From NCBI GenBank assembly GCA_021781795.1, contig JAJXWA010000002.1, positions 62,001 to 126,000 on the forward strand: a stretch of DNA of 64,000 nt, written 5' to 3'. The notes beneath the pieces were generated by a model. The model did not search any database. It had not been told where the DNA came from and saw only the letters and a list, made by a program, of their open reading frames with translations. Positions 645 to 15,781 of the stretch are shown here, piece after piece. This stretch comes from Acidobacteriota bacterium. Lineage in GTDB: Bacteria; Acidobacteriota; Terriglobia; Terriglobales; Acidobacteriaceae. The translations under genes were made by a program, and so were the position numbers. Position 1 is the stretch's first letter. The number at the start of each line of letters is the position of its first letter.

Positions 645-1472
645 TCAGGCCACTTCGTTTTCCAGCACGCCGATGGGCTGAATCGTAATCCGGATGCGGT
701 CGCCGCTTGCCAGCGTGAATGAACTCGGTGGCACAATGCCGGTTCCCGTCATCAGGAAACAGCCGTGCGGAAACGCATTTTCCCGGTGCAGATACTCCAC
801 CAGCACCTTCGGATCGCGCTTCAGCTCCGTAAGGGCCACGCAGCCGGCAAACTCCACCAGCCCCCGCCTGAAGATCTCCAGCATAATCTCCGTTGCATGC
901 GGCAGCGGAGTAGTCGCCAGCAGAATGCAAGGCCCCAGCGCACAGCTCCCGTTGTAGACCTTCGCCTGCGGAAGATAGAGCGGGTTCTCGCCTTCAATGT
1001 CGCGCGAGCTCATATCGTTGCCGATGGTGCAGCCGGTGATGCGCCCTGCCGGGCTCACCAGCAGCGTCAGTTCCGGCTCCGGCACAGACCAGCGCGCATC
1101 CTGCCGAATCCGTACCTTCTCCTCGGGCCCGGCCGTCCGGCTCGCCGTCGATTTGAAGAACAGCTCCGGCCTCTCCGCCGCATACACGCGATCATAAAAG
1201 TCGCCGCCCCCCGCATCTTTCGCCTCTTCCATGCGCGCGCCGCGGCTGCGATAGTAGGTCACGCCCGCTGCCCACACTTCCTGCAGGCCAATCGGCGCGA
1301 GCACCCTCGCTGATTGAAACTCGCTCGATGGGCGCGACGTCGCCACGACGCCCGCCAGAAACTCGGGCAGATCCTCACGCGTCAGCAGCTCGTCCCAGCT
1401 CATCTCTGCCACGCAAAAGTGCTGCGCGTCTTCCTCTACAAAGTTGCCGCGATCCGTCCGATAGAGCTTCAC
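645..1472 (-). CDS. Fumarylacetoacetate hydrolase (FAH) family protein
   Basis: A 275-residue protein of the FAH fold (hydratase, decarboxylase or hydrolase of keto acids such as 2-keto-3-deoxy sugar acids). The C-terminal catalytic half has the family signatures: [11 protein letters not shown] near the substrate loop, PEPELTLLV with acidic metal ligands, [14 protein letters not shown], and a TGTGIVPP-like loop. I chose the GTG start at 1472 because AGGAGG lies 11 bases upstream (1484-1489) and the protein then begins VKLYRTDRG; longer in-frame starts would add an unrelated leader. It follows hutH on the same strand by 66 bases, so the two may be co-transcribed. It could be a GguC/AraD1-like enzyme; the reaction is not determined. 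Confidence 0.82.
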
Positions 1473-1538
1473 TGGTCCGCACGCCTCCTGCGCTCGTCTC
1501 CATGGTACATGGACAAACCCCGTCCGCGTTCCGTCCAA

Positions 1539-3074
1539 CTACGCGCGCAGCATGTCGAACTTCCCGGCCCGCACCGCCGCCGCCAGCGCCTCCATCTCTC
1601 CGGCCAGCACGCGGTCCTGCTCCAGTTTTGGCACGAGGTTCCGCACCGCTTCGAGGGCCTGCTGCACTCCGCGTCCTGGCCGCAGCGGCAACCGGCACTC
1701 CAGCCCCTGCGCTGCACACATCATCTCGATTGCCAGCACGCGCTCCGCGTTCTCCACCACCCGCCGCAGCTTCAGCGCGCCCGTCATGCCCATCGAGACA
1801 TGATCCTCCTTGCCTCCATCCGTCGGAATGCTCCCCGTTGAGGAGGGATGCGAAAGAACCTGGCACTCGCTGATGAGCGCCGCGGAGACGATCTGCGCCA
1901 TCATGAAACCCGAAGACACCCCCGGATCCGCCGCCAGAAACGCCGGCAACCCCTCGTTGATATCCGGATTCAGCAGCCGGTCGATGCGTCTTTCCGTGAT
2001 GCCTGCCAGATCTGTGATCGCAATCGCTGCGTAATCGAACGCGTAGGCCAGCGGCGCTCCATGAAAGTTGCCCCCACTCAACACCACGCCCCGTTTCGCC
2101 CCATCTTCGCCCTGCTCTGAAAAAATCAGCGGATTGTCCGTCGCCGATCCTGCCTCTATCTCCAGAACCCGCGCCACATGCGCAAGCACCCCGCGCACAG
2201 CTCCATGCACCTGCGGCATGCAGCGCAGGCAATACGCATCCTGCACGCGCGTGTCACGCACCCGGTGGGATTCGCGAATCTCCGAGTTCTCCATCAGCTT
2301 CACAAGATGCGCCGCAGCTGCAATCTGCCCCGCATGAGGTCGCACCTCCTGAATCCTCGCATCGAACGCCGACGGGGTCCCCTTCAGAGCCTCCAGGGAC
2401 ATCGCTCCCGCCACATCCGCCAATTCCGCCACACGCACCGCACGCGCCGTGGCCAGCCCGCCCACAGCTGTCATCGCCTGCGTTCCATTCAGCAGCGCCA
2501 GGCCTTCCTTCGCTGTCAGCCTTGCCGGCTCCAGACCTGCGCGCCGCAGCGCCTCGCCGCCGGCCATGCGCTGGCCGTCCAGCCAAGCCTCGCCTTCGCC
2601 GATCACCACCAGCGCCAGATGCGCCAGCGGCGCAAGGTCGCCGCTCGCTCCCACTGATCCCTTCTCGGGTATCACCGGATGCACACCTGCATTCAGCAGC
2701 GCCACCAGCAGTTCCAGCAGTTCCGGCCGCACCCCGCTGTATCCCTTCGCCAGCACGTTGGCCCGCAGCAGCACCATCGCCCGCGACTCCGACTCAGACA
2801 GCGGCTCACCCACTCCGCCCGCATGGCTCCTCACCAGATTCAGTTGCAGCTCAGCCAGACGCTCCGGCGCAATCCGCACATCAGCCAGCTTGCCAAAGCC
2901 CGTGTTCACGCCGTAAACCGTCTCGCCAGCCGCAACAATTTCTTCAATCCGCGCACGACAGGCTGACACACGTTCCAGTGCAGCTGCTGCCACGCGCACC
3001 GGCCTGCGGCCCACCGCTACTGCTTCCATCTCCGCCAGCGTCAGCGGCTGGCCCTCCAGCATCAAAGCGTCCAT
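1539..3074 (-). CDS. hutH: Histidine ammonia-lyase
   Basis: Converts L-histidine to trans-urocanate plus ammonia, the first step of histidine use. The length of 511 residues is typical. The self-processed MIO cofactor triad Ala143-Ser144-Gly145 is in VGASGDLAPL. Ser83-His84 in LVRSHAGGVG is the histidine-type selectivity pair (phenylalanine lyases differ here), and VYGVNTGFG is present. No urocanase, imidazolonepropionase or formiminoglutamate hydrolase gene is in the window, so this is an orphan locus. It is divergent from an Lrp-type regulator across 92 bases that hold a perfect palindrome. There is no clear Shine-Dalgarno sequence at the ATG. Confidence 0.93.
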   Translation of the reverse strand: MDALMLEGQPLTLAEMEAVAVGRRPVRVAAAALERVSACRARIEEIVAAGETVYGVNTGFGKLADVRIAPERLAELQLNLVRSHAGGVGEPLSESESRAMVLLRANVLAKGYSGVRPELLELLVALLNAGVHPVIPEKGSVGASGDLAPLAHLALVVIGEGEAWLDGQRMAGGEALRRAGLEPARLTAKEGLALLNGTQAMTAVGGLATARAVRVAELADVAGAMSLEALKGTPSAFDARIQEVRPHAGQIAAAAHLVKLMENSEIRESHRVRDTRVQDAYCLRCMPQVHGAVRGVLAHVARVLEIEAGSATDNPLIFSEQGEDGAKRGVVLSGGNFHGAPLAYAFDYAAIAITDLAGITERRIDRLLNPDINEGLPAFLAADPGVSSGFMMAQIVSAALISECQVLSHPSSTGSIPTDGGKEDHVSMGMTGALKLRRVVENAERVLAIEMMCAAQGLECRLPLRPGRGVQQALEAVRNLVPKLEQDRVLAGEMEALAAAVRAGKFDMLRA

Positions 3075-3166: not shown

Positions 3167-3667
3167 ATGGCAATGGATTCCACGGCACTGATGGATCTCT
3201 ATGGACGAAAGCTCCTCGAAGAGCTGCAGCGCAACGCCCGCCTCAGTCTCGCCGAACTCAGCCGCCGCATCGGGCTCTCCCCCACTGCTACCGCCGAGCG
3301 CCTGCGGCAAATGGAGGAAACAGGCATCATCCGCGGCTACACCATCGACATCGACCACGAATACCTCGGCCTCGAAGTCAGGGCCTTCATCCGCATGAGT
3401 TGCGGCGGGCAGAACTACCGCCGGCTCCTCGACTTCGTTCAGACGCTCGAAGAAGTCCGCGAGTGCCACCACCTCACCGGCAGCGATGATTTTCTTCTCA
3501 AGGTCACCACCACCAACATGGCCGACCTCGAAGCCCTCATTGAAGCGCTGCTCCCCTACGGCACCCCCGTCACCAGCATCGTCCTTTCGTCTCCGGTGGA
3601 ACACCGGCGCTTTGCCGTCACCGGCAAACTCGTCACCGTCACCCGCAAAGCAGCGCGTCGTCGCTAG
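3167..3667 (+). CDS. Lrp/AsnC family transcriptional regulator
   Basis: A 166-residue one-component regulator of the feast/famine family. Residues about 15-60 form the winged HTH (LLEELQRNARLSLAELSRR, GLSPTATAERLRQME). Residues about 70-150 form the effector-binding RAM domain (LGLEVRAFIRM, CHHLTGSDDFLLKV). Proteins of this family form dimers or octamers and respond to amino acids. It is divergently arranged with hutH, so histidine or a related amino acid is the natural ligand guess. A palindrome just upstream of its start suggests autoregulation. The first ATG is used; a second ATG lies two codons later. Confidence 0.9.
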   Translation: MAMDSTALMDLYGRKLLEELQRNARLSLAELSRRIGLSPTATAERLRQMEETGIIRGYTIDIDHEYLGLEVRAFIRMSCGGQNYRRLLDFVQTLEEVRECHHLTGSDDFLLKVTTTNMADLEALIEALLPYGTPVTSIVLSSPVEHRRFAVTGKLVTVTRKAARRR

Positions 3668-3782
3668 CAATTTCCCCTTGCGCATCTCCACCAAAATCGA
3701 TTTTCATGGTGAGGCGTATTTACGGCTGTTTCGCCGTCTTGAAACGTCGCCCAAATCATCCCCAAAAAGCGAGGCCCCATTG

Positions 3783-4868
3783 ATGACGCTCACTCGAAGA
3801 GAATTTACGCGCCTCAGCGCTCTCGGCATCGCCGCTTCTGTCGCTCCTTCGCTCCCGGCGCAATCCTCCAGCACCAAAACCGGATACGCCATCATCGGCC
3901 TCGGACGCATCGCAGACCACTTCATGGCAGGAATCCTAAACACGAGCAACTCGCGCGTCGCGGCGCTCGTCAGCGGCCATCGCGACAAGGCCGAGCGCAT
4001 TGCAGCCCAATATGGCGTGCCCTCTGAGTCGATCTACAGCTACGAGAAGTTCGATGAGATCGCAAAGAACAAGGACGTGCAGGCCGTCTACGTCGCGCTG
4101 CCCAACTCCATGCACGCCGAGTACACCATCCGCGCTGCGAAGGCCGGCAAGCACGTGCTCTGCGAAAAGCCCATGAGCACCTCCGTCGCCGACGCCGAAG
4201 CCATGATCGCCGCCTGCAAGGCCGCCAACGTCAAGCTCATGATCGCGTACCGCTGCCATTACGAGCCCACCAACCTCAAGGCCGTGCAGCTCATCCGCTC
4301 AGGCGCCATCGGACAGGTGCAGGCCATCGAGAGCGCCTTCGGCTTTCCCATCGCCGCCGGCGAGTGGCGTCTCAACAAGAATCTCTCCGGCGGCGGCCCG
4401 CTTGTCGATGTCGGCATCTATGCGCTCAACGCCTGCCGCTACCTCACGGGTGAAGAACCCGCGCACATCTCCGCCTTTGCGTCGGTCATTGACCATGACG
4501 GCCGCTTTAATACAGTGGAAGAGAATGTCTCCTGGACCATGAAGTTTCCATCCGGCATCGTCGCCAGTTGCAACACCACCTACGGGGCGCTGATGGGCGG
4601 CTACTTCCGTGTCCACGGCCCAAAGGGCTGGGTCGCTGCCGATCCCGCGTTCAACTACGATGGCAATCGTCTGCTCGCCAGCTTCGATGGCAAGCAGCTC
4701 GACGAGCCCAACCCCGCGCGTGATCCCTACCAGTTCACGGCGCAGGCCGACCATTTTTCTCATTGCATCCAGTACGGACTTGAGCCAAAAACTCCCGGCG
4801 AAGAGGGCCTGCGCGACATGCGCTATATCGCCGAGATCTATCGCTCCGCAGGCCTCACTCTCGGATAA
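3783..4868 (+). CDS. Gfo/Idh/MocA family oxidoreductase, Tat-exported
   Basis: A 361-residue NAD(P)-dependent sugar oxidoreductase related to glucose-fructose oxidoreductase. The N-terminus carries a Tat signal (TRREFTRLSALGIAAS) ending near LPAQS, so the protein is exported folded, probably with bound cofactor. The Rossmann loop GLGRIA is at residues 39-44 and the catalytic EKP triad is Glu128-Lys129-Pro130. The C-terminal alpha/beta domain has GGGPLVDVGIYALNACRYL. I start at ATG 3783, because the upstream in-frame extension is low-complexity and would bury the Tat signal. It is convergent with the isomerase at 4884. The substrate is unknown. Confidence 0.88.
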   Translation: MTLTRREFTRLSALGIAASVAPSLPAQSSSTKTGYAIIGLGRIADHFMAGILNTSNSRVAALVSGHRDKAERIAAQYGVPSESIYSYEKFDEIAKNKDVQAVYVALPNSMHAEYTIRAAKAGKHVLCEKPMSTSVADAEAMIAACKAANVKLMIAYRCHYEPTNLKAVQLIRSGAIGQVQAIESAFGFPIAAGEWRLNKNLSGGGPLVDVGIYALNACRYLTGEEPAHISAFASVIDHDGRFNTVEENVSWTMKFPSGIVASCNTTYGALMGGYFRVHGPKGWVAADPAFNYDGNRLLASFDGKQLDEPNPARDPYQFTAQADHFSHCIQYGLEPKTPGEEGLRDMRYIAEIYRSAGLTLG

Positions 4869-5971: not shown

Positions 5972-7117
5972 TCAAAACTCCAACCATTGCTGCTTCTCAC
6001 TGCTCGCGATAGCGCGTTCGATAAAGCGCATGCCACGCACGCCCGCGCGAATTCCCGGCAGCGTCGCCGGCAGAGGACGCGGCACGCCCCGCTTCCACGC
6101 GACAAGCGAATCCGCAAACTCCCGGTACAGCACTGCAAAGGCCTCAATGAATCCCTCCGGATGCCCGCCCGGCAGCCGCGTCACCGTGCGCGCGTCTTCG
6201 CTCAGATAGGCGCCCGCAGCATGGCGAATCTCTTCAGCCCCATCGAGCCATTTCAGTCGCAGCCGATTTGGGTCCTCCTGCCGCCAGTCCAGCGAACCAT
6301 ACTCGCCGTAGACGCGCAACCGCAGGCCATTGCCTTCGCCCGCGGCAACCTGCGAAGCCATCAGCACCGCGCTCGCGCCGTTCTCCAGCCGCAGCAGCGC
6401 CGTGCAGTCGTCATCCACGCGCCGCCCCGGCACCACGCAGCGCAGCGTCGCGTTCAACCCCGTCACATCCAGCCCCGTCACATACTCCAGCAGGTGAAAC
6501 GCATGCACACCGATGTCGCCTGTGCAGCCGCCCGGCCCGTTCAGTTCAGGATTTGATCGCCAGCCCGCCTGTTTGTGTCCCGTCTGCTCAATAGGGCGGC
6601 TCAGCCATCCCTGCAGATACTCCACCACGATCTTGCGAATCGCTCCCAGTCGCCCGCTTGCGCAGATCGCACGCGCCTCGCGCACCAGTGCGTAGCCTGC
6701 GTAGGTATGCGTCAGCCCATAGGGCAATCCCGATGCTGCCACCGCTCTCTCCAGCGCCAGCGCCTCCTCATACGTTGCAGTCGCCGGCTTGTCGCTCATC
6801 ACCGGAAAGCCCGCTCGTAGAGCAGCCTCCGCCACGGGAAGATGCAGCGCATTCGGTGTCACAATTGTTACAAAGTCGATCGCATCCAGCCTTCCGCGCT
6901 CCGCTGCCATCATCGCTTCATAGCTTGCATAAGCACGCTCCGGCGCAATCCGGTAGCTTTCCCCCGCAGCGCGCGAACGCTCCGCCGACTGCGAAAACGC
7001 CCCCGCCACAAGCTCAATCCGTCCGTCCAGTTCCGCCGCCATGCGATGCACTGGCCCGATAAACGCACCCGGCCCGCCGCCCACCATGCCCATGCGCAAC
7101 TTCCGTTCCCCGCTCAT
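5972..7117 (-). CDS. Gfo/Idh/MocA family oxidoreductase, cytoplasmic
   Basis: A 381-residue NAD(P)-dependent sugar dehydrogenase without a signal peptide. The Rossmann loop VGGGPGAFIG lies near residues 12-21. The catalytic lysine motif reads Asp109-Lys110-Pro111 (SDKPAT), a variant of the usual EKP. GPGGCTGDIGVHAFHLLEYVTGL is the substrate-domain signature. It sits between mannonate dehydratase (31 bases upstream) and the TIM-barrel isomerase (32 bases downstream), so it is very probably in the same operon. A likely role is oxidation or reduction of an inositol-, glycoside- or uronate-type substrate; the family is too broad for a firm assignment. Confidence 0.88.
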   Translation of the reverse strand: MSGERKLRMGMVGGGPGAFIGPVHRMAAELDGRIELVAGAFSQSAERSRAAGESYRIAPERAYASYEAMMAAERGRLDAIDFVTIVTPNALHLPVAEAALRAGFPVMSDKPATATYEEALALERAVAASGLPYGLTHTYAGYALVREARAICASGRLGAIRKIVVEYLQGWLSRPIEQTGHKQAGWRSNPELNGPGGCTGDIGVHAFHLLEYVTGLDVTGLNATLRCVVPGRRVDDDCTALLRLENGASAVLMASQVAAGEGNGLRLRVYGEYGSLDWRQEDPNRLRLKWLDGAEEIRHAAGAYLSEDARTVTRLPGGHPEGFIEAFAVLYREFADSLVAWKRGVPRPLPATLPGIRAGVRGMRFIERAIASSEKQQWLEF

Positions 7118-7148: not shown

Positions 7149-8357
7149 TTACCAGTCAGTCAGCGTTCCATCGAGTTTCCGGTTCACCGGCAGATACGCG
7201 CGCTGATACGGATACTTCGCCGCCAGCTTTTCATCTATATCCACGCCCAGCCCCGGCGCATCACCTGGAACCATCATGCCTTCGTTGAAGGAGTACGCGT
7301 GTGGAAACACCGCATCGGTCTCTTCCGTATGAGGCATGTGCTCCTGAATACCGAAGTTGTGAATCGCCGTCCCGAGGTGCAGCGCCGCCGCCATCGTCAC
7401 CGGCGACAGATCCGTCGCGCCGTGGCATCCGGTCCGCACGTGATAGAGAGCCGCAAAGTCCGCGGTCTTCTTCAAGTGCGTCAGTCCGCCGCCATGCACC
7501 ACCGTCATCCGCAGATAATCAATCCACTGGTTGCGAATCAGATCGTGCGCATCCCACACGGAGTTGAACACCTCGCCCACAGCCAGTGGCGTCGTAGTGT
7601 GCTCCCGAATCACCTTGAAGCCTTCCTGCAACTCCGCTGGCGTCGGATCCTCGATCCAAAACAAATGAAATGGTTCAAGTTCCTTGCCCAGCCGCGCCGC
7701 TTCAATGGGCGTCAACCGGTGATGGCAATCGTGCAGCAGATGCACTTCCTCGCCAAAGCTCTCGCGCACCTTCGCAAACAGCTTCGGTGTGTGTCGCAGA
7801 TACGGCTCCGTCGCCCACGCCTGTTCCGACGGCAATCCCCGCTCGGCGGGCTCATAGCGTCCCGCTCCTTTGGGCACTCCATATGTGCTCGGCACTCCGG
7901 GAATGCCGCTCTGCACGCGGATTGCTTTGTAGCCCAGGTCGCGATGCCGCGCCACATCCTCGAGCGCGTGCTCGATATCTTTGCCGTTGGCATGGGCATA
8001 CACCAGCACGCCTTCGCGGCTCTTTCCGCCCAGCAGGTTGTAGACCGGCGTCTTCAGCGCCTTGCCCTTGATGTCCCACAGCGCCACGTCCACAGCGGCA
8101 ATCGCCGACATCGTCACCGGCCCGCGCCGCCAGTAGGTGCCGCGATACAGGTACTGCCAGATATCTTCCGTCTGAAATGGATCGCGCCCAATCAGGCACG
8201 GAATCACATGCTCCGTCAGATAGCTTGCAACCGCGAGTTCGCGCCCGTTCAGCGTCCCATCGCCGAGGCCGTAGATCCCCTCATCCGTCTCTACCTTCAG
8301 CGTCACAAAGTTGCGCCCAGGAGACGTGATATGGACATGTGCGCTCGTAATCTTCAT
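7149..8357 (-). CDS. manD: D-mannonate dehydratase, enolase superfamily (ManD/RspA type)
   Basis: Dehydrates D-mannonate to 2-keto-3-deoxy-D-gluconate (KDG). The protein has 402 residues, the usual length. The residues known for high-activity ManD enzymes fall at the expected numbers: Arg147 (AIRVQS), Tyr159 (PSTYG), Asp210 and His212 (HDCHHR), Glu236 (WIEDPTP) and Glu262 (GEVFNS). The [12 protein letters not shown] loop is also present. GAGGAA directly precedes the ATG. It lies within a leftward operon, and a KDG kinase and KDPG aldolase are divergently encoded 1 kb away, so the full route from mannonate to central metabolism is local. The specificity call rests on motif conservation. Confidence 0.93.
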
Positions 8358-8402: not shown

Positions 8403-9179
8403 TCACTGATTCACGCCGCTCGCAAGAAATCCGCCGTCCACGGCGATAATCTCGCCAGTAACAAACGACGCCGCCTCTGAAGCCAGATACACCGCCGTCC
8501 CCGCAATCTCTCGCGCTTCGCCAAACCTCCGCATCGGCGTCCGCATTAGGAGTTCTTCGCCGCGCGGCGTATTCAGCACCAGCCCTGCGTTCAGCGGCGT
8601 CGGAAAAACGCCCGGCGCTATCGCATTCACATTCACGCCCGTCTGCGCCAGCTCAATCGCCAGCACCTTGGTCAGCGCGCCCACCGCAGCTTTGCTCGCC
8701 GCATAAGCCGCTACATGATAGAACCCCACGAACGTCGTCAGCGATCCGAGGTTGATGATCCGGCCGTAGCCAGCCCTCACCATCGTCCTGCCGAAGATCT
8801 GACAGGCGCGCAGCGTACCATTCAGATTCGTATCCATCACGCGCGCCCAGTCGGCCTCGTTCGCGTCCAGTGTCGGCGCTTTGCTGGTCACCCCTGCGGC
8901 ATTCACCAGAATGTCGATCCGGCCGAACTCCCCGAGCACTGCATCGTGCATCGCCTGCAGAGACGCGCTGCTCTGCACGTCGCTGGTCACAGGAAGCGAG
9001 CGCCGTCCTCGCGCCTCAATCTCCGCGGCCACGGTGCTCACCTGCTCCTGACGCCGCGAGGTCGCCACCACGTCGGCACCCGCATCGGCCAGCCCCAGGG
9101 CAATCGCCTGTCCCAGTCCCGTCGTGCCGCCGGTCACCACCGCCACGCGTCCCGTCAGATCAAACAGTCCCCCGCCCAA
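8403..9179 (-). CDS. Short-chain dehydrogenase/reductase, KduD/gluconate 5-dehydrogenase-like
   Basis: A 258-residue classical SDR. The NAD(P) loop TGGTTGLGQAIALG, the NAAG motif (ILVNAAGV), catalytic Ser in INLGSLTT, and YAASK with catalytic Tyr/Lys are all present. The C-terminal IAVDGGFLASG is typical of 2-keto-3-deoxygluconate/gluconate 5-dehydrogenases. I chose the TTG start at 9179, preceded by GGGAG, because the chain then opens with GGGLFDLTGRVAVVTGG; starts further upstream add a leader with no SDR similarity. It is the first gene of the leftward operon, 45 bases before mannonate dehydratase. It probably interconverts a keto-sugar acid that enters that route, for example fructuronate/mannonate or a 5-keto-KDG. 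Confidence 0.85.
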   Translation of the reverse strand: MGGGLFDLTGRVAVVTGGTTGLGQAIALGLADAGADVVATSRRQEQVSTVAAEIEARGRRSLPVTSDVQSSASLQAMHDAVLGEFGRIDILVNAAGVTSKAPTLDANEADWARVMDTNLNGTLRACQIFGRTMVRAGYGRIINLGSLTTFVGFYHVAAYAASKAAVGALTKVLAIELAQTGVNVNAIAPGVFPTPLNAGLVLNTPRGEELLMRTPMRRFGEAREIAGTAVYLASEAASFVTGEIIAVDGGFLASGVNQ

Positions 9180-9355
9180 TCTCGTTCTCCCTTCCTCAAT
9201 GCAACTGCGGCGTCCCAAACCACAGGAAACCGCTCCCCTGCCTGCCTCTGCCGCCCAATGGCAATCTACCACGCATACCGGTTCGTTGAGGAGAAAGCCG
9301 CATCCAGAACGCGCCGATGCTTTACAGTGAGGGACGGAGACTTTTAACCGCTCTC

Positions 9356-10453
9356 ATGGACGCTATTCAGATTCCCGACAGCTCCCGCCGGTGGGATTGC
9401 CTCAGTCTCGGCGAAGTCATGCTTCGCCTCGACCCCGGTGAACTGCGCATCCACACCGCGCGCACCTTCCAGGTCTGGGAGGGTGGCGGCGAATACAACG
9501 TCGCCCGCGGCCTGCGCCGCTGCTTCGGTCTCCGAACCGCCATCGCCACCGCGCTGGCTGACAACGCAGTCGGCCGTCTCGTTGAGGACCTCATCCTGCA
9601 GGGCGGCGTCGATGCCTCTCTGCTGCACTGGGTGCCCTACGACGGCGTGGGCCGCACCGCCCGCAACGGGCTCAACTTCACCGAGCGCGGCTTTGGTCTG
9701 CGCGCTGCCGCCGGATGCAGCGACCGCGGCCACACCGCCATCAGCCTTGTTCAGTCCGGCGAATTCGACTGGGACTCCATCTTTGGCGCACAAAACGGCT
9801 CCCGCTGGTTCCACACCGGCGGCATCTTCGCCGCACTGTCTTCATCCACCGCTCAGGTCGCAGCCGAGGCCATGGATGCCGCGCGTCGCCATCAGACGCC
9901 CGTCTCCTTCGATCTCAACTACCGCGACTCCCTCTGGAAGAGCATCGGCGGCAAAGCCAAAGCGCAGGAAGTCAACCGTGAACTGGTCCGCAAAGTCGAC
10001 CTGCTCCTCGGCAACGAAGAAGACTTCTCCGCGATGCTCGGCGTCAAAATTCCTGGCGTCGGTGACGACTTCGCCGAGCTGCCCATCGCCGGTTACGAAC
10101 ACATGCTGCGCGAGGTCGCCGCGGCCTATCCCAACCTGAAGCTCATCGCCAGCACCCTGCGCACGGCACACACCGCGAGCCGCAACGCCTGGGGCGCCAT
10201 CGCACTCTACCAGGACAAAATCGTCCATTTTCCCCAGCTCGATATCGAGATCCTCGATCGCGTCGGCGGCGGCGACAGCTTCGCCTCCGGACTCATCTAT
10301 GGCCTGCTTGCCGGCAAGCCCATCGAGTGGGCCGTCCGGTGCGGCGTGGCGCACGGCGCGCTCGCCATGACAACGCCCGGCGACACCAGCATGGCTACTC
10401 TCTCTGAAGTCGAACGCGTTATCAAGGGTGGTTCCGCGCGCATCGCCCGTTAG
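9356..10453 (+). CDS. kdgK: PfkB-family 2-keto-3-deoxygluconate kinase
   Basis: A 365-residue ribokinase-fold sugar kinase, most probably phosphorylating KDG to KDPG. The N-terminal pattern LSLGEVMLRLDPGE and GGGEYNVARGLRR is the KDG-kinase version of PfkB signature 1. DRVGGGDSFASG is signature 2, with catalytic Asp307; the usual threonine of DTxGxGD is replaced by Arg-Val. The ATG at 9356 starts a chain that reaches the family core quickly; an alternative ATG at 9317 would add 13 residues, and neither has an ideal ribosome site. KDPG aldolase follows after 9 bases. The gene is divergent from the mannonate operon and supports KDG flux. Confidence 0.9.
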   Translation: MDAIQIPDSSRRWDCLSLGEVMLRLDPGELRIHTARTFQVWEGGGEYNVARGLRRCFGLRTAIATALADNAVGRLVEDLILQGGVDASLLHWVPYDGVGRTARNGLNFTERGFGLRAAAGCSDRGHTAISLVQSGEFDWDSIFGAQNGSRWFHTGGIFAALSSSTAQVAAEAMDAARRHQTPVSFDLNYRDSLWKSIGGKAKAQEVNRELVRKVDLLLGNEEDFSAMLGVKIPGVGDDFAELPIAGYEHMLREVAAAYPNLKLIASTLRTAHTASRNAWGAIALYQDKIVHFPQLDIEILDRVGGGDSFASGLIYGLLAGKPIEWAVRCGVAHGALAMTTPGDTSMATLSEVERVIKGGSARIAR

Positions 10454-10462
10454 GAAGGCTGC

Positions 10463-11122
10463 ATGAAAGAAACTACACGGCACGTCATTGAATCGGTAGG
10501 CCTCATCCCGGTCCTTCGCGCAAAATCTTCCTCACAGGCCCACGCCGTGGTGCAGGCAATGCTCGCCGGCGGCGTCAAAGTCGTTGAGGTCACGATGACT
10601 GTCCCCGGCGCCATCGAACTGCTCAGGGATCTCCGGCACGAATTTGGCTCAGAACTGCTGCTCGGCTCCGGCACCGTCACCACTGCCGAGGAAGCCGCAG
10701 CCACCATCGCTGCTGGCGCTGAATTCGTCGTCAGCCCCAGCCTGCACCTCGAAGTCATCCAGGTCACCAGAGACCACGGCAAGCTCTCCATCCCTGGAGC
10801 GCTCACGCCCACCGAAGTCATCACCGCCTGGCGAGCCGGCGCCGATTACGTCAAAATCTTCCCCTGCTCGGCCATGGGCGGGGCCAGCTACCTCAAGTCG
10901 CTCCTCGCTCCCTTTCCCGACCTGCAGCTCATTCCCACTGGCGGAGTCACGCTGCAGACCGCAGAAAGCTTTCTCAAGGCCGGCGCGCGCGCCCTTGGCG
11001 TAGGCAGCGATCTGGTCAACCTTCAGGCCATTGACAACGGCACCCCCGAGGTCATAACCCACACAGCGCGAGCCTATCTTGAAATCCTGCAAAAATTCCG
11101 CGCAGAGTCCGAATCTCGTTAG
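10463..11122 (+). CDS. eda: 2-dehydro-3-deoxy-6-phosphogluconate (KDPG) aldolase
   Basis: Cleaves KDPG to pyruvate and glyceraldehyde-3-phosphate. The 219-residue class I aldolase has Glu42 (VVEVTMT) and the Schiff-base lysine Lys131 (DYVKIFPCS), plus PTGGVTLQTA and the phosphate-binding GVGSDLV. The position after EVT that is Arg in the E. coli enzyme (EVTLRT) is Thr here (EVTMTV); some Gram-positive homologues also lack it, so activity is still likely. AGGAAGG precedes the ATG. It is directly behind KDG kinase. A sigma70-like promoter 30 bases downstream marks the end of this two-gene unit. Confidence 0.92.
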   Translation: MKETTRHVIESVGLIPVLRAKSSSQAHAVVQAMLAGGVKVVEVTMTVPGAIELLRDLRHEFGSELLLGSGTVTTAEEAAATIAAGAEFVVSPSLHLEVIQVTRDHGKLSIPGALTPTEVITAWRAGADYVKIFPCSAMGGASYLKSLLAPFPDLQLIPTGGVTLQTAESFLKAGARALGVGSDLVNLQAIDNGTPEVITHTARAYLEILQKFRAESESR

Positions 11123-11151: not shown

Positions 11152-11179
11152 TTGAGAGTGTTGCATGAACTTGTATACT
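11152..11179 (+). promoter_or_regulatory. Sigma70-type promoter for the SBP-SDR-FAH-aldehyde dehydrogenase set
   Basis: TTGAGA (11152-11157), a 16-base spacer and TATACT (11174-11179) lie in the 114-base gap after KDPG aldolase. This part of the window is AT-richer than its surroundings. Initiation near 11186 would leave a leader of about 50 bases before the GTG of the next gene. It would allow the downstream four genes to be expressed apart from kdgK-eda. Confidence 0.5.
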
Positions 11180-11236
11180 TCGGTTGTCCCTTAATCCAAG
11201 CTTCTGTCCATCATTCGGGATACACCCGGAGGAACG

Positions 11237-12466
11237 GTGACCACGCTCCGCATTGCACTCCGCAACTATGCGGACTTCGAAAGCGCTCTTCAAGAGGAAG
11301 CTCACCTCTTTGAAGCGTTGAATGCCGGAGTAAGGATCGAACTGGTTCCCCTCGGAATCAAAGAACTGCATCAGGAGGCCATTGCCGATCACGGCCTCGC
11401 CTCAGGACGCTTCGACCTTGCCTTGCTCGTTACGGATTGGCTTGCAGAGGGCGTATCCTCAGGATCCATCGAGGATCTTCAGCCGTGGCATCTTCGCCGC
11501 CCCATCCCGCAATGGCCGACAGGCTGGTCCCCTACTCTGGTCCGCCCGCTGCTCTTTGACAAAACCCTCTCAGCCCTGCCATGGCACGATGGCCCAGAGT
11601 GCCTCGTCTACCGCTCCGATCTCTTTTCCGATCCGAATCGCCGTTTAGCATTCCGCGCGCAATATAACCGCAATCTCACACCTCCGGCCACATGGGGGGA
11701 GTTTGAAGAGGTCGCACGTTTCTTCACCAATCCAGAATCGAATCTTTACGGTACAGCCTTTGCCGCGCTCCCCGACGGACACAACACCCTCTACGACTTC
11801 GTCTTGCAGATCTGGTCCCGAGACGGCGACCTGACAGACTATGAAGGCCGTCCGTTGCTGACCTCCGACGCAGCCGTGCAGGGACTCGAGTTTTACCGCA
11901 ATGCTGTCCGCAATCCCTCCATTTGCCATCCTCACTCCACGACACTCGACTCCACTCAGTCTGGTGACCTCTTCCTTGCCGGAGAGGTGGCGATGATGAC
12001 CAACTGGTTCGGCTTCGCAGCGCGCGCCGCACGCGTAGGCTCTCACCTGCGCGGAAAAATCGAGATCGCGCCGCTCCCGGTCCATCCCGGTTGCGATCCA
12101 GTCTCTCTATCCGTCTTTTGGGCGCTCGCCATGGGCGCAGGCTCACGTCAAAAAGCGCTTGCTTGGGACTTCCTGCGTTTCGTCACAGCCGCCGAGCAGG
12201 ACCTTCGTATCACAGAGCATGGAGCCGTCGGCGTTCGTCTCTCCACGTGGAGAAGCCCTGCCCTTCATGATGACATCCCCGCCTACGCCCAGTTGGAACG
12301 CATCTCCATGCGCGCGCGCACGCTGCCCTCATGCCGCTCCATGGCCGCCTTCGCGTCAATCGTTGACGGAGTCATCACACGTGCCCTGCACACAGTTGAC
12401 CCCACAGTCGCTATCCTTGAGGAAGCGCAGCAACAGGTTGATCGCGCTCAATTGAGGCTCGTGTGA
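11237..12466 (+). CDS. Solute-binding-protein-like protein without signal peptide
   Basis: A 409-residue protein with the features of family 1 extracellular (sugar-type) solute-binding proteins: a beta-strand/helix start (TLRIALRNYADFE), DLALLVTDWLAEG, PWHDGPECLVYRSDLF, and near the end WDFLRFVTAAEQD. The GTG start has GGAGG five bases upstream. An in-frame TAA at 11192-11194 rules out a longer N-terminus, so there is no signal peptide or lipobox and the protein should stay in the cytoplasm. No ABC permease or ATPase gene is nearby. Its stop overlaps the next start (GTGA), so it is translationally coupled to the SDR. Possible roles are a cytoplasmic ligand sensor or carrier; this is unproven. 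Confidence 0.75.
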   Translation: MTTLRIALRNYADFESALQEEAHLFEALNAGVRIELVPLGIKELHQEAIADHGLASGRFDLALLVTDWLAEGVSSGSIEDLQPWHLRRPIPQWPTGWSPTLVRPLLFDKTLSALPWHDGPECLVYRSDLFSDPNRRLAFRAQYNRNLTPPATWGEFEEVARFFTNPESNLYGTAFAALPDGHNTLYDFVLQIWSRDGDLTDYEGRPLLTSDAAVQGLEFYRNAVRNPSICHPHSTTLDSTQSGDLFLAGEVAMMTNWFGFAARAARVGSHLRGKIEIAPLPVHPGCDPVSLSVFWALAMGAGSRQKALAWDFLRFVTAAEQDLRITEHGAVGVRLSTWRSPALHDDIPAYAQLERISMRARTLPSCRSMAAFASIVDGVITRALHTVDPTVAILEEAQQQVDRAQLRLV

Positions 12467-13257
12467 AAAATTCCCAGAATTCGGATCCGATTGTTCAGCC
12501 GTTTCGTCTCGACGGTCTGCACGCACTTGTCACCGGCGCAGCCAGCGGCATCGGCGCCGCCACCGCTCGCGAGCTCGCATCCGCGGGCGCCCATGTTCTG
12601 GTTGCCGACATCAACGTCATCGCTGCCGAAGCATTTGCGGCGACGCTGCCCAATGCGCGCGCTCTCCATCTCGATGTCACCAGCCCCAACTCCATTGCAG
12701 CCGCTGTCGCGCGCCACACCCGGCTCGACATCCTCGTCAACAATGCCGGCATCGGCCACGTCGGTTCCATCGAAGCAACCGAACCCGAAGACTTCGACCG
12801 CCTTCTCGACGTGAATGTGCGCTCCGTCTATTTGGTCACTCGCGGCTTTCTTCCTTTGCTTCTTGCCGCGCAGGCCGAGACTGGTCGCACCGGCTGCATC
12901 GTCAACATCGCATCCGTCGCCGGCCTCGTCGGCATCAAACAGCGTTTCGCCTACTGCACCACCAAAGGCGCCGTCGTCGCCATGACCCGTCAGCTCGCCG
13001 TCGAATATCCCAAGACCCTGCGCGTCAATGCCGTCTGCCCCGGCACTGTGGAAACACCCTTTGTCGAGGGCTACCTCGAAAAATTTCACAAGCACAATAA
13101 GGAAGAGGTGCGTGCAGATCTGCGCGCGCGCCAGCCCATCGGCCGGCTCGGCCAGCCAGAAGAGATTGCCTCCATGGTGCGCTATCTCGCCTCCAGTGAA
13201 GCCGCATTCATCACCGGCTCGCTCTTCAACATCGACGGCGGCTGGACCGCAGCCTGA
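12463..13257 (+). CDS. Short-chain dehydrogenase, 2-keto-3-deoxy-L-fuconate/rhamnonate dehydrogenase-like
   Basis: A 264-residue classical SDR: TGAASGIGAATAREL nucleotide loop, ILVNNAGIGH, Ser of VNIASVAG, and YCTTKGAV with Tyr/Lys. The C-terminus has SLFNIDGGWTA. Directly downstream is an FAH-family hydrolase. In the non-phosphorylating L-fucose and L-rhamnose routes an SDR makes a 2,4-diketo-3-deoxy acid that an FAH enzyme cleaves, so this pair fits that chemistry. Its GTG start overlaps the stop of the preceding gene by four bases. The substrate assignment is context inference; a general sugar-acid SDR is the alternative. Confidence 0.83.
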   Translation: MKNSQNSDPIVQPFRLDGLHALVTGAASGIGAATARELASAGAHVLVADINVIAAEAFAATLPNARALHLDVTSPNSIAAAVARHTRLDILVNNAGIGHVGSIEATEPEDFDRLLDVNVRSVYLVTRGFLPLLLAAQAETGRTGCIVNIASVAGLVGIKQRFAYCTTKGAVVAMTRQLAVEYPKTLRVNAVCPGTVETPFVEGYLEKFHKHNKEEVRADLRARQPIGRLGQPEEIASMVRYLASSEAAFITGSLFNIDGGWTAA

Positions 13258-13302
13258 CTGCTCTCCAATTCGCTGCTCCTGATCCTCATCAAGGAATCCG
13301 TC

Positions 13303-14130
13303 ATGAAACTCGTCTCTTTCTCTACGCAAGACGCCGCCATCCGTCCCGGCGCTCTGCTCGCAGATGGCTCCGTGGCCGACCTCTCTGCCGCGGGCTTTGC
13401 AGACGCGCTCAGCGTCATCGCCGCCGGGCACAAGGAAGGCGGCAACTGCCCCGTCGTGCCTGCCGAACAGGTGCGTCTCCATGCGCCTATAGCCAATCCC
13501 CCGCGCGTCATCGCGATTGGGCTCAACTACCGCGATCACGCGAAAGAATCCGGCATGGCCATTCCCACCACGCCGGTCGTCTTCTTTAAGCAGACCACCG
13601 CCATCGTCGGCCCCGGAGACGCCATTGTGCTTCCGAAAAATTCCACCGAGCCCGACTACGAAGCGGAGTTCGCTTTCGTTATCGGCAAAGGCGGCTATCG
13701 CATTCCCGCCTCTGCCTGGCGCGAGCACGTCTACGGCTACACCATCGTCAACGACGTCAGCGCCCGCGATGTCCAGTTCGCCTCGTCGCAGTGGTCCATG
13801 AGCAAAAGCTTTCCCACCTTCTGCCCGCTCGGCCCAGCCATCGTCACCGCCGATGAAATCCCTGATCCGCACAACCTCGCCATTCGCCTCACCATCGATG
13901 GCGAAACCCTCCAGGACTCCAACACCCGCGAGCTTGTCTTTAACATCCCCGACCTTGTGGAATATCTCTCTTCCATCACGCCGTTGCTGCCCGGTGACAT
14001 CGTATCGACCGGCACGCCGCCTGGCGTCGGCCTCGGGCGCAACCCGAAGCGCTGGCTCAAACCCGGCGAAACCGTCACCATCACCATCCAGGGCCTCGGC
14101 TCGCTCAGTAACCCGGTCGTCGCGGAGTAA
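13303..14130 (+). CDS. FAH-family hydrolase, 2,4-diketo-3-deoxy-fuconate/rhamnonate hydrolase-like
   Basis: A 275-residue enzyme of the fumarylacetoacetase/acylpyruvase fold. VIAIGLNYRDHAKESG is the substrate loop. DYEAEFAFVIGKG carries the Glu metal ligands, and VNDVSARDVQF plus STGTPPGVGLG are the C-terminal signatures. It is expected to be an Mg-dependent cytoplasmic C-C bond hydrolase. It lies 45 bases after the SDR and 64 bases before the aldehyde dehydrogenase. Together these match the end of an L-fucose/L-rhamnose-type oxidative path that yields pyruvate and a hydroxy acid. No fuconate- or rhamnonate-type dehydratase is in the window unless mannonate dehydratase has a second role. Confidence 0.87.
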   Translation: MKLVSFSTQDAAIRPGALLADGSVADLSAAGFADALSVIAAGHKEGGNCPVVPAEQVRLHAPIANPPRVIAIGLNYRDHAKESGMAIPTTPVVFFKQTTAIVGPGDAIVLPKNSTEPDYEAEFAFVIGKGGYRIPASAWREHVYGYTIVNDVSARDVQFASSQWSMSKSFPTFCPLGPAIVTADEIPDPHNLAIRLTIDGETLQDSNTRELVFNIPDLVEYLSSITPLLPGDIVSTGTPPGVGLGRNPKRWLKPGETVTITIQGLGSLSNPVVAE

Positions 14131-14194
14131 ACTCGCCTCCAGAGCAACCCGGCTGGTGCGGTACCCGCACGGAAGCAAAGATGGAAAGGCAACG

Positions 14195-15781
14195 ATGGAA
14201 CTGACTGGACAATCCTTTCTCGGCGATCGTCGCGGCGCAATGCACGGCGCCAGCTTTCACGCGATCAACCCGCAAACAAGCGAGGCCCTTTCGCCTGCTT
14301 ATTTCTCTGCTTCGCCGTCCGAGGTCGATGCCGCCTGCCAGCTCGCCTCGCAGGCCTTCGCGTCCTTCTCGCAGTCCGCCGGCAAAGCACGCGCGGCATT
14401 TCTGCGCCGCGCCGCCGACGGCATCACCGCCCGCCAGCAGGAACTGGCCGAACGCGCCCATCTTGAAACGGCTCTGCCCATGCCGCGACTACTCGGCGAA
14501 GCCGCGCGCACAGCCAATCAGCTTCGCCTCTTTGCCTCCCTCGTGGAAGAAGGCTCATGGGTGCAGGCGCGCATTGATCCAGCGCTTCCCAACCGCCAGC
14601 CCATTCCCCGGCCTGACATCCGCTCCATGCTGCGCCCGCTCGGCCCCGTCGCCGTCTTCGGCGCCAGCAACTTCCCGCTCGCCTTCTCCGTCGCCGGCGG
14701 AGACACCGCCTCTGCTCTCGCCGCTGGCTGCCCTGTCGTCGTCAAGGCGCATTCCGCGCACCCCGGAACCAGCGAGATTGCTGCCGATATCCTCACCCAG
14801 GCTGCTGCCGCCGAAGGCCTCCACCCCGGCGTCTTTACCATGCTCTTTGATGCGGGCATCGACGCAGGCACGGCACTCGTCCGCCATCCACTCATCCGCG
14901 CCGTAGCATTCACCGGTTCGCTCCGCGGTGGACGCGCCCTCATGGACATGGCCGCCGCCCGCCCCGATCCCATCCCATGCTTCGCAGAGATGTCCAGCGG
15001 CAACCCCGTATTCATCCTGCCCGGCGCGCTCAAGTCCAACCCAGCAGAACTCGCCCAGGTCCTCTTCAACTCATTTACTCTCGGCGCAGGCCAGCAATGC
15101 ACCAAGCCCGGCATCGTACTCGTCGCCGGCGCGACTGGCGACCAGGCCTTCCTCGACGCGCTGCGCCCCATGGTGCAGGCCGCTGCGCCGTCCACACTCC
15201 TCACCGCAGACATCGCCCGCGCCTATACACGCGCCACCGACGCGCGCGCTCGTGAGATTCCCCTTGCCGCCAGTGCTCCAGCTCCTCAAGGCGCATCGCC
15301 CTGTCTCGCCCAAACTAAAATCTTCACCGTATGTCTCGATGAATTTCTCGCGAAACCGGAGCTCGCGCACGAGGTCTTCGGACCCAACACACTCCTCGTC
15401 CACTGCGATGAGCCCGGCGACTTCCTCCGCGCCGCCCACTCCCTTGAAGGCCACCTCACCGCTTCCGTCTTTGGAACCGATCAGGATCTTGTCGCCCATC
15501 GCGAGCTGATTCAATTGCTGGAGCAGAAGGCTGGACGCCTCATCTTCAACGGCGTCCCGACCGGTGTAGACGTAGGCCACGCCATGATTCATGGCGGCCC
15601 TTATCCTTCCACGTCGGACTCGCGCTTTACCTCGGTCGGCAGCCTGGCCATCTACCGCTTTGCGCGGCCTGTCTGCTTCCAGAACTGCCCGCAGGCGCTG
15701 CTTCCGCCGGAGTTGCAGGACGCAAATCCTCTCGGCATCGCGCGCCTCATCGATGGCAAGCCGGAGCGGCCCACCACCTGA
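14195..15781 (+). CDS. NAD(P)-dependent aldehyde dehydrogenase, ketoglutarate-semialdehyde type
   Basis: A 528-residue ALDH-superfamily enzyme. Pro-Asn-like VFGASNFPLAFS, catalytic Glu265 (AEMSSGN) and nucleophile Cys302 (AGQQCTKPG) are in place. The long N-terminus (LTGQSFLGDRRG) and the overall length match 2,5-dioxovalerate (alpha-ketoglutarate semialdehyde) dehydrogenases of non-phosphorylating pentose and sugar-acid pathways. I place the start at ATG 14195, preceded by GGAAAGGC; the open frame continues upstream only inside the FAH gene in another frame. It is the last gene of the rightward set. It could also oxidise lactaldehyde or glycolaldehyde released upstream in the path. Confidence 0.88.
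   Translation: MELTGQSFLGDRRGAMHGASFHAINPQTSEALSPAYFSASPSEVDAACQLASQAFASFSQSAGKARAAFLRRAADGITARQQELAERAHLETALPMPRLLGEAARTANQLRLFASLVEEGSWVQARIDPALPNRQPIPRPDIRSMLRPLGPVAVFGASNFPLAFSVAGGDTASALAAGCPVVVKAHSAHPGTSEIAADILTQAAAAEGLHPGVFTMLFDAGIDAGTALVRHPLIRAVAFTGSLRGGRALMDMAAARPDPIPCFAEMSSGNPVFILPGALKSNPAELAQVLFNSFTLGAGQQCTKPGIVLVAGATGDQAFLDALRPMVQAAAPSTLLTADIARAYTRATDARAREIPLAASAPAPQGASPCLAQTKIFTVCLDEFLAKPELAHEVFGPNTLLVHCDEPGDFLRAAHSLEGHLTASVFGTDQDLVAHRELIQLLEQKAGRLIFNGVPTGVDVGHAMIHGGPYPSTSDSRFTSVGSLAIYRFARPVCFQNCPQALLPPELQDANPLGIARLIDGKPERPTT

Follow-up and report, generated by a model that had tools for sequence, protein, structure and literature searches.

A sugar-binding-protein homologue encoded among sugar-breakdown genes of an acidobacterium lacks an export signal and very probably works inside the cell, outside transport

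What is the task of a protein with the fold of a transport-associated sugar-binding protein when its gene lies among sugar-breakdown genes and carries no export signal? The question is raised by a gene in a stretch of 64,000 nucleotides from an acidobacterium of the family Acidobacteriaceae (GCA_021781795.1, contig JAJXWA010000002.1, positions 62,001 to 126,000), the whole of which is hereafter called the window and is numbered from its first letter. The gene product, a solute-binding protein (SBP) homologue termed SBP1, is a member of Pfam family SBP_bac_1 (2.9e-22) and had no match up to E 0.01 in an NCBIfam scan. A preliminary description, made from the letters of the window, had proposed an intracellular binding protein built into a sugar-acid degradation operon, acting as ligand sensor, chaperone or substrate carrier. 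We are confident that SBP1 is cytosolic and stands outside transport; a known fold is here used inside the cell, a use that is real and widespread. The absence of an export signal amid sugar-breakdown genes points to a little-known intracellular job. The gene and its signals are as follows.

11237..12466, plus strand: SBP1, 409 amino acids, SBP_bac_1 family, GTG start, no signal peptide (direct reading, Pfam, predicted model)
11152..11179, plus strand: sigma70-like promoter TTGAGA-N16-TATACT 5' of the SBP1 unit (TTGAGA 11152-11157, TATACT 11174-11179; direct reading)
11228..11232, plus strand: Shine-Dalgarno sequence GGAGG of SBP1 (direct reading; kept in six of six relatives)

Direct reading of the sequence bears out the signals named in the preliminary description, i.e. 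a GTG start with a strong ribosome site, a TTGAGA-N16-TATACT promoter of its own, an in-frame stop 15 codons upstream of the start (TAA, 11192-11194) and a 4-bp overlap (GTGA, 12463-12466) in which the SBP1 stop (TGA, 12464-12466) meets the GTG start at 12463 of the following short-chain dehydrogenase/reductase (SDR) gene. Nothing points to a frameshift that would hide a signal peptide. In an alignment of six near relatives the GTG start and GGAGG are kept in all, and a TATACT-like -10 element is present in four; in the other two SBP1 lies directly 3' of an aldolase gene, and the promoter was dropped as a defining feature of the SBP1 unit since these two lack it. The gene is under purifying selection, with a nonsynonymous rate (dN) of 0.135 and a synonymous rate (dS) of 1.23 between the window copy and its nearest relative (dN/dS ~0.11), and 0.014 and 0.099 between the relatives L040 and L041 (dN/dS ~0.14; L numbers denote individual loci); these are the two SBP1 pairs for which the ratio is usable, dS being saturated in the others.

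The AlphaFold model of the window protein (62 sequences, pLDDT 95.9) matches solved sugar-binding proteins over its full length: 5iai (Z 45.7, root-mean-square deviation 2.2, 387 residues aligned), 1eu8 (Z 45.4) and 6dtq (Z 45.2). Because the mature parts of the solved proteins align from residue 1 of SBP1, no room is left for a signal peptide, and because the first strand of the model already occupies residues 2-9, a hidden signal peptide is very unlikely on the predicted structure.

Relatives show the same beginning. Scanning genome contigs yielded 104 confirmed relatives. The best 80 were retained and plasmid loci added; with twelve copies of genome-contig loci (L020-L023, L026-L032 and L035) and an ordinary SBP locus (L123) dropped, the set comprises 92 distinct SBP1 loci. 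The genome contigs come from Acidobacteriota, Chloroflexota, Thermomicrobiota, Latescibacterota, Pseudomonadota, Planctomycetota, Verrucomicrobiota, Armatimonadota and haloarchaea, and the plasmids extend the family to Bacteroidota, about ten phyla in total. Closer to the window, 17 of 200 genomes sampled from its family and 5 of 396 sampled from its phylum have SBP1 (1e-25), as do 12 of 59 genomes of its genus (1e-40); its own genome holds a paralogue, 40% identical, on contig C15. A start codon lies no more than 12 codons from the mature N-terminus in 91 of the 92 loci, the exception (L062) being cut by a contig end, and an in-frame stop occurs within 40 codons upstream in 59; homologues are thus signal-less too, as the idea of a cytoplasmic protein demands. 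This N-terminus is alike in archaea, Bacteroidota and Chloroflexota. A second SBP family, SBP2, often encoded beside SBP1, starts at the mature domain in 46 complete proteins of 47 (L061 is cut by a contig end), and its predicted model has the same fold (pLDDT 95.4, Z 39.0 to 1eu8). Across 91 SBP1 proteins the top hydropathy of any 14-residue stretch within the first 30 residues is 1.06; the N-terminal medians are 0.56 for SBP1 and 0.36 for SBP2, seven exported controls giving 1.66-3.14. In the Rufibacter SBP1 (L120:8992-10239) the public start (9112) seems to be internal, and the upstream TTG at 8992 matches the family N-terminus.

Several observations speak for export and have to be set against this. 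Within the first 45 residues 3 of 91 SBP1 proteins reach a hydropathy of 1.6 (top 1.66), as do none of 46 SBP2 proteins (top 1.33). An alternative start lies 12-60 codons upstream in 28 of the 91 loci, and the upstream stretch is moderately hydrophobic (1.16-1.56) in L038, L039, L044, L046, L048 and L114; we take these stretches to be due to chance because close relatives (L040-L043) have a stop there. Furthermore, genes of ATP-binding cassette (ABC) transporters lie near at least 17 of the 92 loci, RbsABC-type genes near at least 12 and BPD_transp_1-type permeases near five, and in L092:7823-10176 and L118:7871-10188 the SBP1 gene shares 4 bp with that of an RbsC-type permease. The SBP1 of both these loci is signal-less despite the overlap, and the ABC genes of L080, L091, L092 and L118 are accompanied by an exported RbsB-type SBP of their own. 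In L103 SBP1 is followed by a BPD_transp_1 permease and by another SBP_bac_1 protein, whose signal resembles that of the twin-arginine (Tat) pathway or of lipoproteins, and L105 and L106 have a similar signal-bearing open reading frame (ORF). Where the check was settled (L080, L091, L092, L103 and L118, but not L107 and L075), the ABC genes near SBP1 come with their own exported SBP. Signal-bearing homologues beside ABC permeases had been named as the finding that would tell against a cytoplasmic protein; the homologues proved to be signal-less, and it is the ABC genes that do lie near some of them.

The ligand cleft was compared with that of transport proteins by sequence alignment, read by eye, with the ligand residue numbers of 1eu8. 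The Asn-Trp pair and the second Trp of sugar-binding SBPs are retained (N256, W257 and W295). The acid of the sugar-SBP motif DAGLLYYRKDL aligns with G119 of SBP1, within H117-D118-G119-P120-E121; according to the titles of PDB entries, R49, D118, W287 and R356 are mutated residues of a related alpha-glycoside-binding protein. Thirty-one positions are invariant in 62 SBP1 sequences from about nine phyla, among them H117, D180, H182, N183, D187, R334 and W338, and D118, E121 and W295 are at least 90% conserved. This conserved, changed motif of putative cleft residues suggests a fixed, altered ligand or chemistry, short of proving catalysis.

With what, then, does SBP1 keep company? The counts below refer to stretches of up to ~9 kb on each side of the 92 loci, mapped by long ORFs and BLAST to references, with some starts over-long and some genes missed. 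The commonest setting is a module of class III coenzyme A (CoA) transferase (in 53 loci), MaoC dehydratase (53), Gfo/Idh/MocA oxidoreductase (51; Gfo below) and SBP2 (47); SBP2 and the CoA transferase occur together in 46 loci and all four partners in 30. Among the 69 loci flanked by 3 kb or more on each side, the CoA transferase is found in 39, Gfo in 39, MaoC in 41 and SBP2 in 35, a fumarylacetoacetate hydrolase (FAH)-family gene in 18, a fucosidase in 14 and an IclR gene in 18; at least one of CoA transferase, FAH and Gfo is present in 64 and none in five. Overlaps are frequent. SBP2 adjoins the CoA transferase on the same strand 38 times, and in 20 of these pairs the two genes share 4 or 1 bp; CoA transferase adjoins SBP1 in 21 cases (nine overlapping) and MaoC adjoins SBP1 in 11 (nine overlapping). 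In the CoA transferase alignment, which holds 62 of 64 places (two left out for length), D170, presumably the catalytic Asp, is kept in at least 90% of the rows.

The sugar link comes from alpha-L-fucosidase, RhaT and L-fuconate dehydratase among the SBP1 neighbours. Three annotated bacterial plasmids each combine two SBP genes with CoA transferases, Gfo/Idh/MocA and MaoC, and have alpha-L-fucosidase and/or RhaT alongside. On a haloarchaeal plasmid a fucosidase and L-rhamnose mutarotase accompany SBP1, a single CoA transferase, an AMP-binding protein, MaoC and Gfo. The haloarchaeal loci L115, L117 and L122 have the CoA transferase, the AMP-binding protein and MaoC, and no SBP2 was found in them. 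Records of the isolates Acidipila rosea (L057), Paracidobacterium acidisoli (L056) and Stakelama flava (L092) hold SBP1, SBP2 and the CoA transferase together. The genome of the window (87.7% complete) has such a cluster as well: its sole PF02515 match at 1e-10 is flanked by SBP2 on one side and the SBP1 paralogue on the other, and three of its five PF01547 matches above cut-off belong to the SBP1 and SBP2 families. On contig C15, near the contig end (L033:15039-19267), the order is MaoC / SBP2 - CoA transferase III - SBP1. SBP2 also occurs apart from SBP1: of 200 family genomes 24 have SBP2, and 15 of these are without SBP1 (1e-25). In ten of these 15 regions that were inspected, SBP2 clusters with the CoA transferase in L294, L295, L298, L299 and L303 and with MaoC in L298 and L300, and L297 has none of the CoA transferase, MaoC or Gfo/mandelate-racemase-type partners. 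A further variant, in L292, L293 and L296, has SBP2 beside Gfo and a mandelate-racemase-type protein, with no CoA transferase in the stretch.

The window copy has another setting. A Pfam scan covered the main ORFs of window positions 1-18.6 kb, that is 11 kb upstream and 6 kb downstream of SBP1, and found the following neighbours.

12463..13257, plus strand: SDR dehydrogenase, candidate 2-keto-3-deoxy-aldonate dehydrogenase, nearest solved relative DHRS6 (2ag5) (Pfam, structure-database match)
13303..14130, plus strand: FAH-family hydrolase, nearest solved relative L-2,4-diketo-3-deoxyrhamnonate hydrolase (8gsr, 3.2e-61) (Pfam)
14195..15781, plus strand: aldehyde dehydrogenase, nearest solved relatives 1eyy and 3v4c (Pfam)
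10463..11122, plus strand: 2-keto-3-deoxy-6-phosphogluconate (KDPG)/KHG aldolase (TIGR01182, above cut-off)
9317..10453, plus strand: PfkB-family sugar kinase, like 2-keto-3-deoxygluconate kinase, in the adjacent upstream unit (no NCBIfam cut-off reached)
8403..9272, minus strand: KduD-like SDR in a divergent unit (among the matches listed, above cut-off for the broad subfamily NF005559 only)
7149..8357, minus strand: D-mannonate dehydratase ManD (NF043051, above cut-off)
5972..7117, minus strand: Gfo/Idh/MocA oxidoreductase adjoining ManD (Pfam)

The scanned ORFs further include a second Gfo/Idh/MocA protein, a TIM barrel, another FAH-family protein, an aromatic amino acid lyase and a lytic transglycosylase; an ABC permease or ATPase was not among them, which agrees with the preliminary description. 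The FAH hydrolase following the SDR scores 239.6 and so lies below the NF053535 cut-off of 500. The other FAH-family gene adjoins that of the aromatic amino acid lyase (645-3074, minus strand). The ORF of the second Gfo/Idh/MocA gene (3486-4868) seems to extend too far in the 5' direction; close to its probable true start there is a Tat-like RREFTRL stretch.

In a quickly made SBP1 tree of 91 rows, whose root is not fixed, the window protein groups with loci of the FAH/SDR type, and the larger group also includes the CoA-transferase-linked acidobacterial loci L054, L056, L057 and L078; the branch of the window may thus have moved out of the CoA setting. In six genomes of the family (L024, L025, L050, L051, L052 and L055) SBP1 adjoins a gene of the L-fuconate dehydratase cluster, a member of which matches 1yey (L-fuconate dehydratase) at 7.7e-161. 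Four of these (L024, L025, L051 and L055) have the gene order Gfo-SBP1-SDR-dehydratase-FAH, three with a fucosidase, and in the same four an SDR 69-72% identical to that of the window lies directly 3' of SBP1. The SDR/FAH surroundings expected of homologues from the preliminary description hold for the acidobacterial branch, and the wider family keeps company with SBP2, CoA transferases, MaoC and Gfo.

Presence of SBP1 in such operons is facultative. Thirty-eight genomes with L-fuconate dehydratase were found and 24 regions taken, one of just 3 kb; BLAST found SBP1 in none of the 24. Four of the SBP1-less loci (L155, L156, L161 and L176) have the order Gfo-SDR-dehydratase-FAH with a fucosidase, a distant one in L161. 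SBP1 is cleanly absent from L156, and L155 retains on the minus strand (~9820-10029) a remnant of 66 codons, produced by an in-frame internal deletion, which matches the N- and C-terminal ends of SBP1 (1.35e-10 and 3.6e-10) and still overlaps the SDR start. Within the genus, window-type SBP1 is found in 11 of 59 genomes (one copy partial) and the SDR in 36; all 11 copies lie directly 5' of the SDR, with aligned ends no more than 57 bp apart. Among 12 of the 25 regions with the SDR and without SBP1, eight lack any gene replacing SBP1, the KDPG aldolase lying immediately upstream, and four have different ORFs in its place. SBP1 is accessory to the window-type operon and not built in: of the original proposal, the signal-less protein coupled to catabolic genes stands, and its being a fixed part of the operon does not, since many sister operons lack it.

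What might such a protein do? Our best explanation as a whole, to which we give a little less than an even chance, is a non-transport cytosolic SBP1 that converts a sugar lactone or acid or hands it over. SBP1 would be a cytosolic descendant of the sugar-binding proteins of ABC transporters and an accessory part of sugar-acid catabolism, of the L-fucose/L-rhamnose type in the best-annotated relatives. It would act between sugar oxidation, by Gfo/Idh/MocA or another dehydrogenase, and the enzymes using the aldonic acid, either class III CoA transferase and MaoC or fuconate dehydratase, SDR and FAH. Its two-lobed cleft would bind a sugar lactone, a sugar acid or a form of either, and would convert the ligand or fix its form, for example by lactone opening or by anomer or isomer conversion, steps that can also proceed spontaneously; the product would pass to the next enzyme, encoded by the next, often overlapping, gene. 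SBP2 would be a second family of similar history, paired with the CoA transferase. We infer the ligand class, the catalysis, the hand-over and the loss of transport, and to the enzymatic part for SBP1 taken alone we give a slightly lower chance than to the whole. Three points favour an accessory enzyme or handler: SBP1 sits among oxidising and acid-using enzymes in two routes; it is present in some operons and absent from others, which would suit a reaction that also proceeds unaided; and its cleft appears to have changed and to have stayed constant since. An enzymatic role accounts for these features no worse than the sensor, chaperone or carrier proposed originally.

A number of findings weigh against this explanation. 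None of the four module partners is found in 25 of the 92 loci, the window included, some of these loci being short contigs; no module-type Gfo was found in the window's own clade, and its genome, at 87.7% completeness, has no L-fuconate dehydratase (best match 32%, 3e-18). No fusion of SBP1 with a CoA transferase was noticed in the ORF lists, no wider search having been made. The cleft comparison depends on an alignment read by eye, and the eight regions in which the aldolase adjoins the SDR manage with nothing in place of SBP1. Amidohydrolase-family genes occur in three SBP1 loci (annotated in L122; weak BLAST matches of 26-29% in L065 and L075), and the known fuconolactonase belongs to that family. 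A plain lactonase as the sole reading of SBP1 is weakened by these genes and by the unreplaced absence in operons.

A pure carrier, moreover, would look much the same as an accessory enzyme. SBP1 and SBP2 might be non-catalytic carriers or specificity subunits that bind a scarce or reactive sugar acid or lactone and either buffer it or deliver it to the CoA transferase or the SDR. The predicted full sugar-SBP fold suits such a task, as do the SBP genes that so often adjoin or overlap one particular enzyme gene (the 38, 21 and 11 neighbour pairs given above) and the position directly before the SDR in all 11 window-type copies. We nevertheless consider carriers unlikely, although a serious alternative, since orthologous SDRs and fuconate operons exist without SBP1, and the altered invariant motifs rich in H, D and E seem to exceed the needs of a binding site, a point that is no more than suggestive. 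It is improbable that SBP1 is an intracellular sensor which informs a regulator, for example the neighbouring IclR protein, of the sugar of the pathway: the IclR gene counted above, of one cluster, accompanies SBP1 in 18 of the 69 loci with both flanks of 3 kb or more and is missing from 51, and the SBP1 gene mostly sits between enzyme genes. IclR proteins, furthermore, bind effectors on their own. The reading of SBP1 as a periplasmic SBP of the ordinary kind, its signal peptide or permease overlooked through a frameshift, a wrong start or a distant permease, has clear SBP_bac_1 membership, the transport-SBP fold, the nearby ABC genes and the upstream starts (six with a moderately hydrophobic stretch) on its side; it was rejected as highly improbable on the start at the mature N-terminus in 91 of 92 loci and the first strand of the model, the in-frame upstream stops in the window and in 59 of 92 loci including L040-L043, the common N-terminus in archaea, Bacteroidota and Chloroflexota, and the signal-bearing SBPs of the checked ABC genes. 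A functionless relic carried along in the operon, which facultative presence and the one remnant (L155) might recall, is just as hard to credit given dN/dS of ~0.11-0.14 in two pairs and 31 invariant residues in 62 sequences.

SBPs are by default annotated as extracellular or as part of an ABC transporter, as in the plasmid records used here, and SBP1 is very likely mis-annotated as extracellular. SBP1 and SBP2 appear to be two widespread families that are misnamed, lack export signals and mark a sugar-acid/CoA module; if they are enzymes or carriers, they show a transport protein turned into a metabolic component. The module predicts sugar degradation through aldonyl-CoA. More speculatively, it might constitute a new sugar route shared by bacteria and haloarchaea: class III CoA transferases would convert an oxidised (deoxy)sugar to aldonyl-CoA and MaoC would dehydrate the product, with SBP1 and SBP2 as cytosolic enzymes or specificity subunits and the window copy re-used in a CoA-independent sugar-acid operon. 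In open-licence PubMed Central (PMC) literature no paper on such chemistry and no described enzyme of the sugar-binding SBP_bac_1 family was found; nor, judged by titles and the starts of abstracts, was a description of the SBP1 family or of the module.

Known systems share parts of this arrangement. The described class III CoA transferase/MaoC clusters have in common with the module the CoA_transf_3 and MaoC families and the conserved Asp, and the module adds two signal-less SBP families, Gfo, and nearby fucosidases and RhaT. The non-phosphorylative L-fucose route proceeds by a dehydrogenase, a lactonase, fuconate dehydratase, a second dehydrogenase and an FAH-family hydrolase (PMC13406643); the sister operons share with it L-fuconate dehydratase, SDR, FAH and in some cases a fucosidase, whereas no SBP appears in the available part of that description (PMC13406643) and fuconate dehydratase is the part missing from the window genome. 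With the sugar-binding SBPs of ABC transporters (1eu8, MalE3 6dtq, Arad_9887 5iai and SmoF 7ofy) SBP1 shares the full-length fold (Z 44.8-45.7), the Pfam family, the Asn-Trp and the position of the second Trp, but it lacks a signal peptide, its invariant cleft motif is different and it lies among catabolic enzymes, and permease genes belonging to it were not seen. Enzymes derived from SBPs include MqnA/MqnD and thiaminase I. Cyclohexadienyl dehydratase is likewise an enzyme that evolved from an SBP and is linked to an arginine SBP (PMC7683729), and SBP1, its catalysis being putative, resembles it as an SBP fold put to another job.

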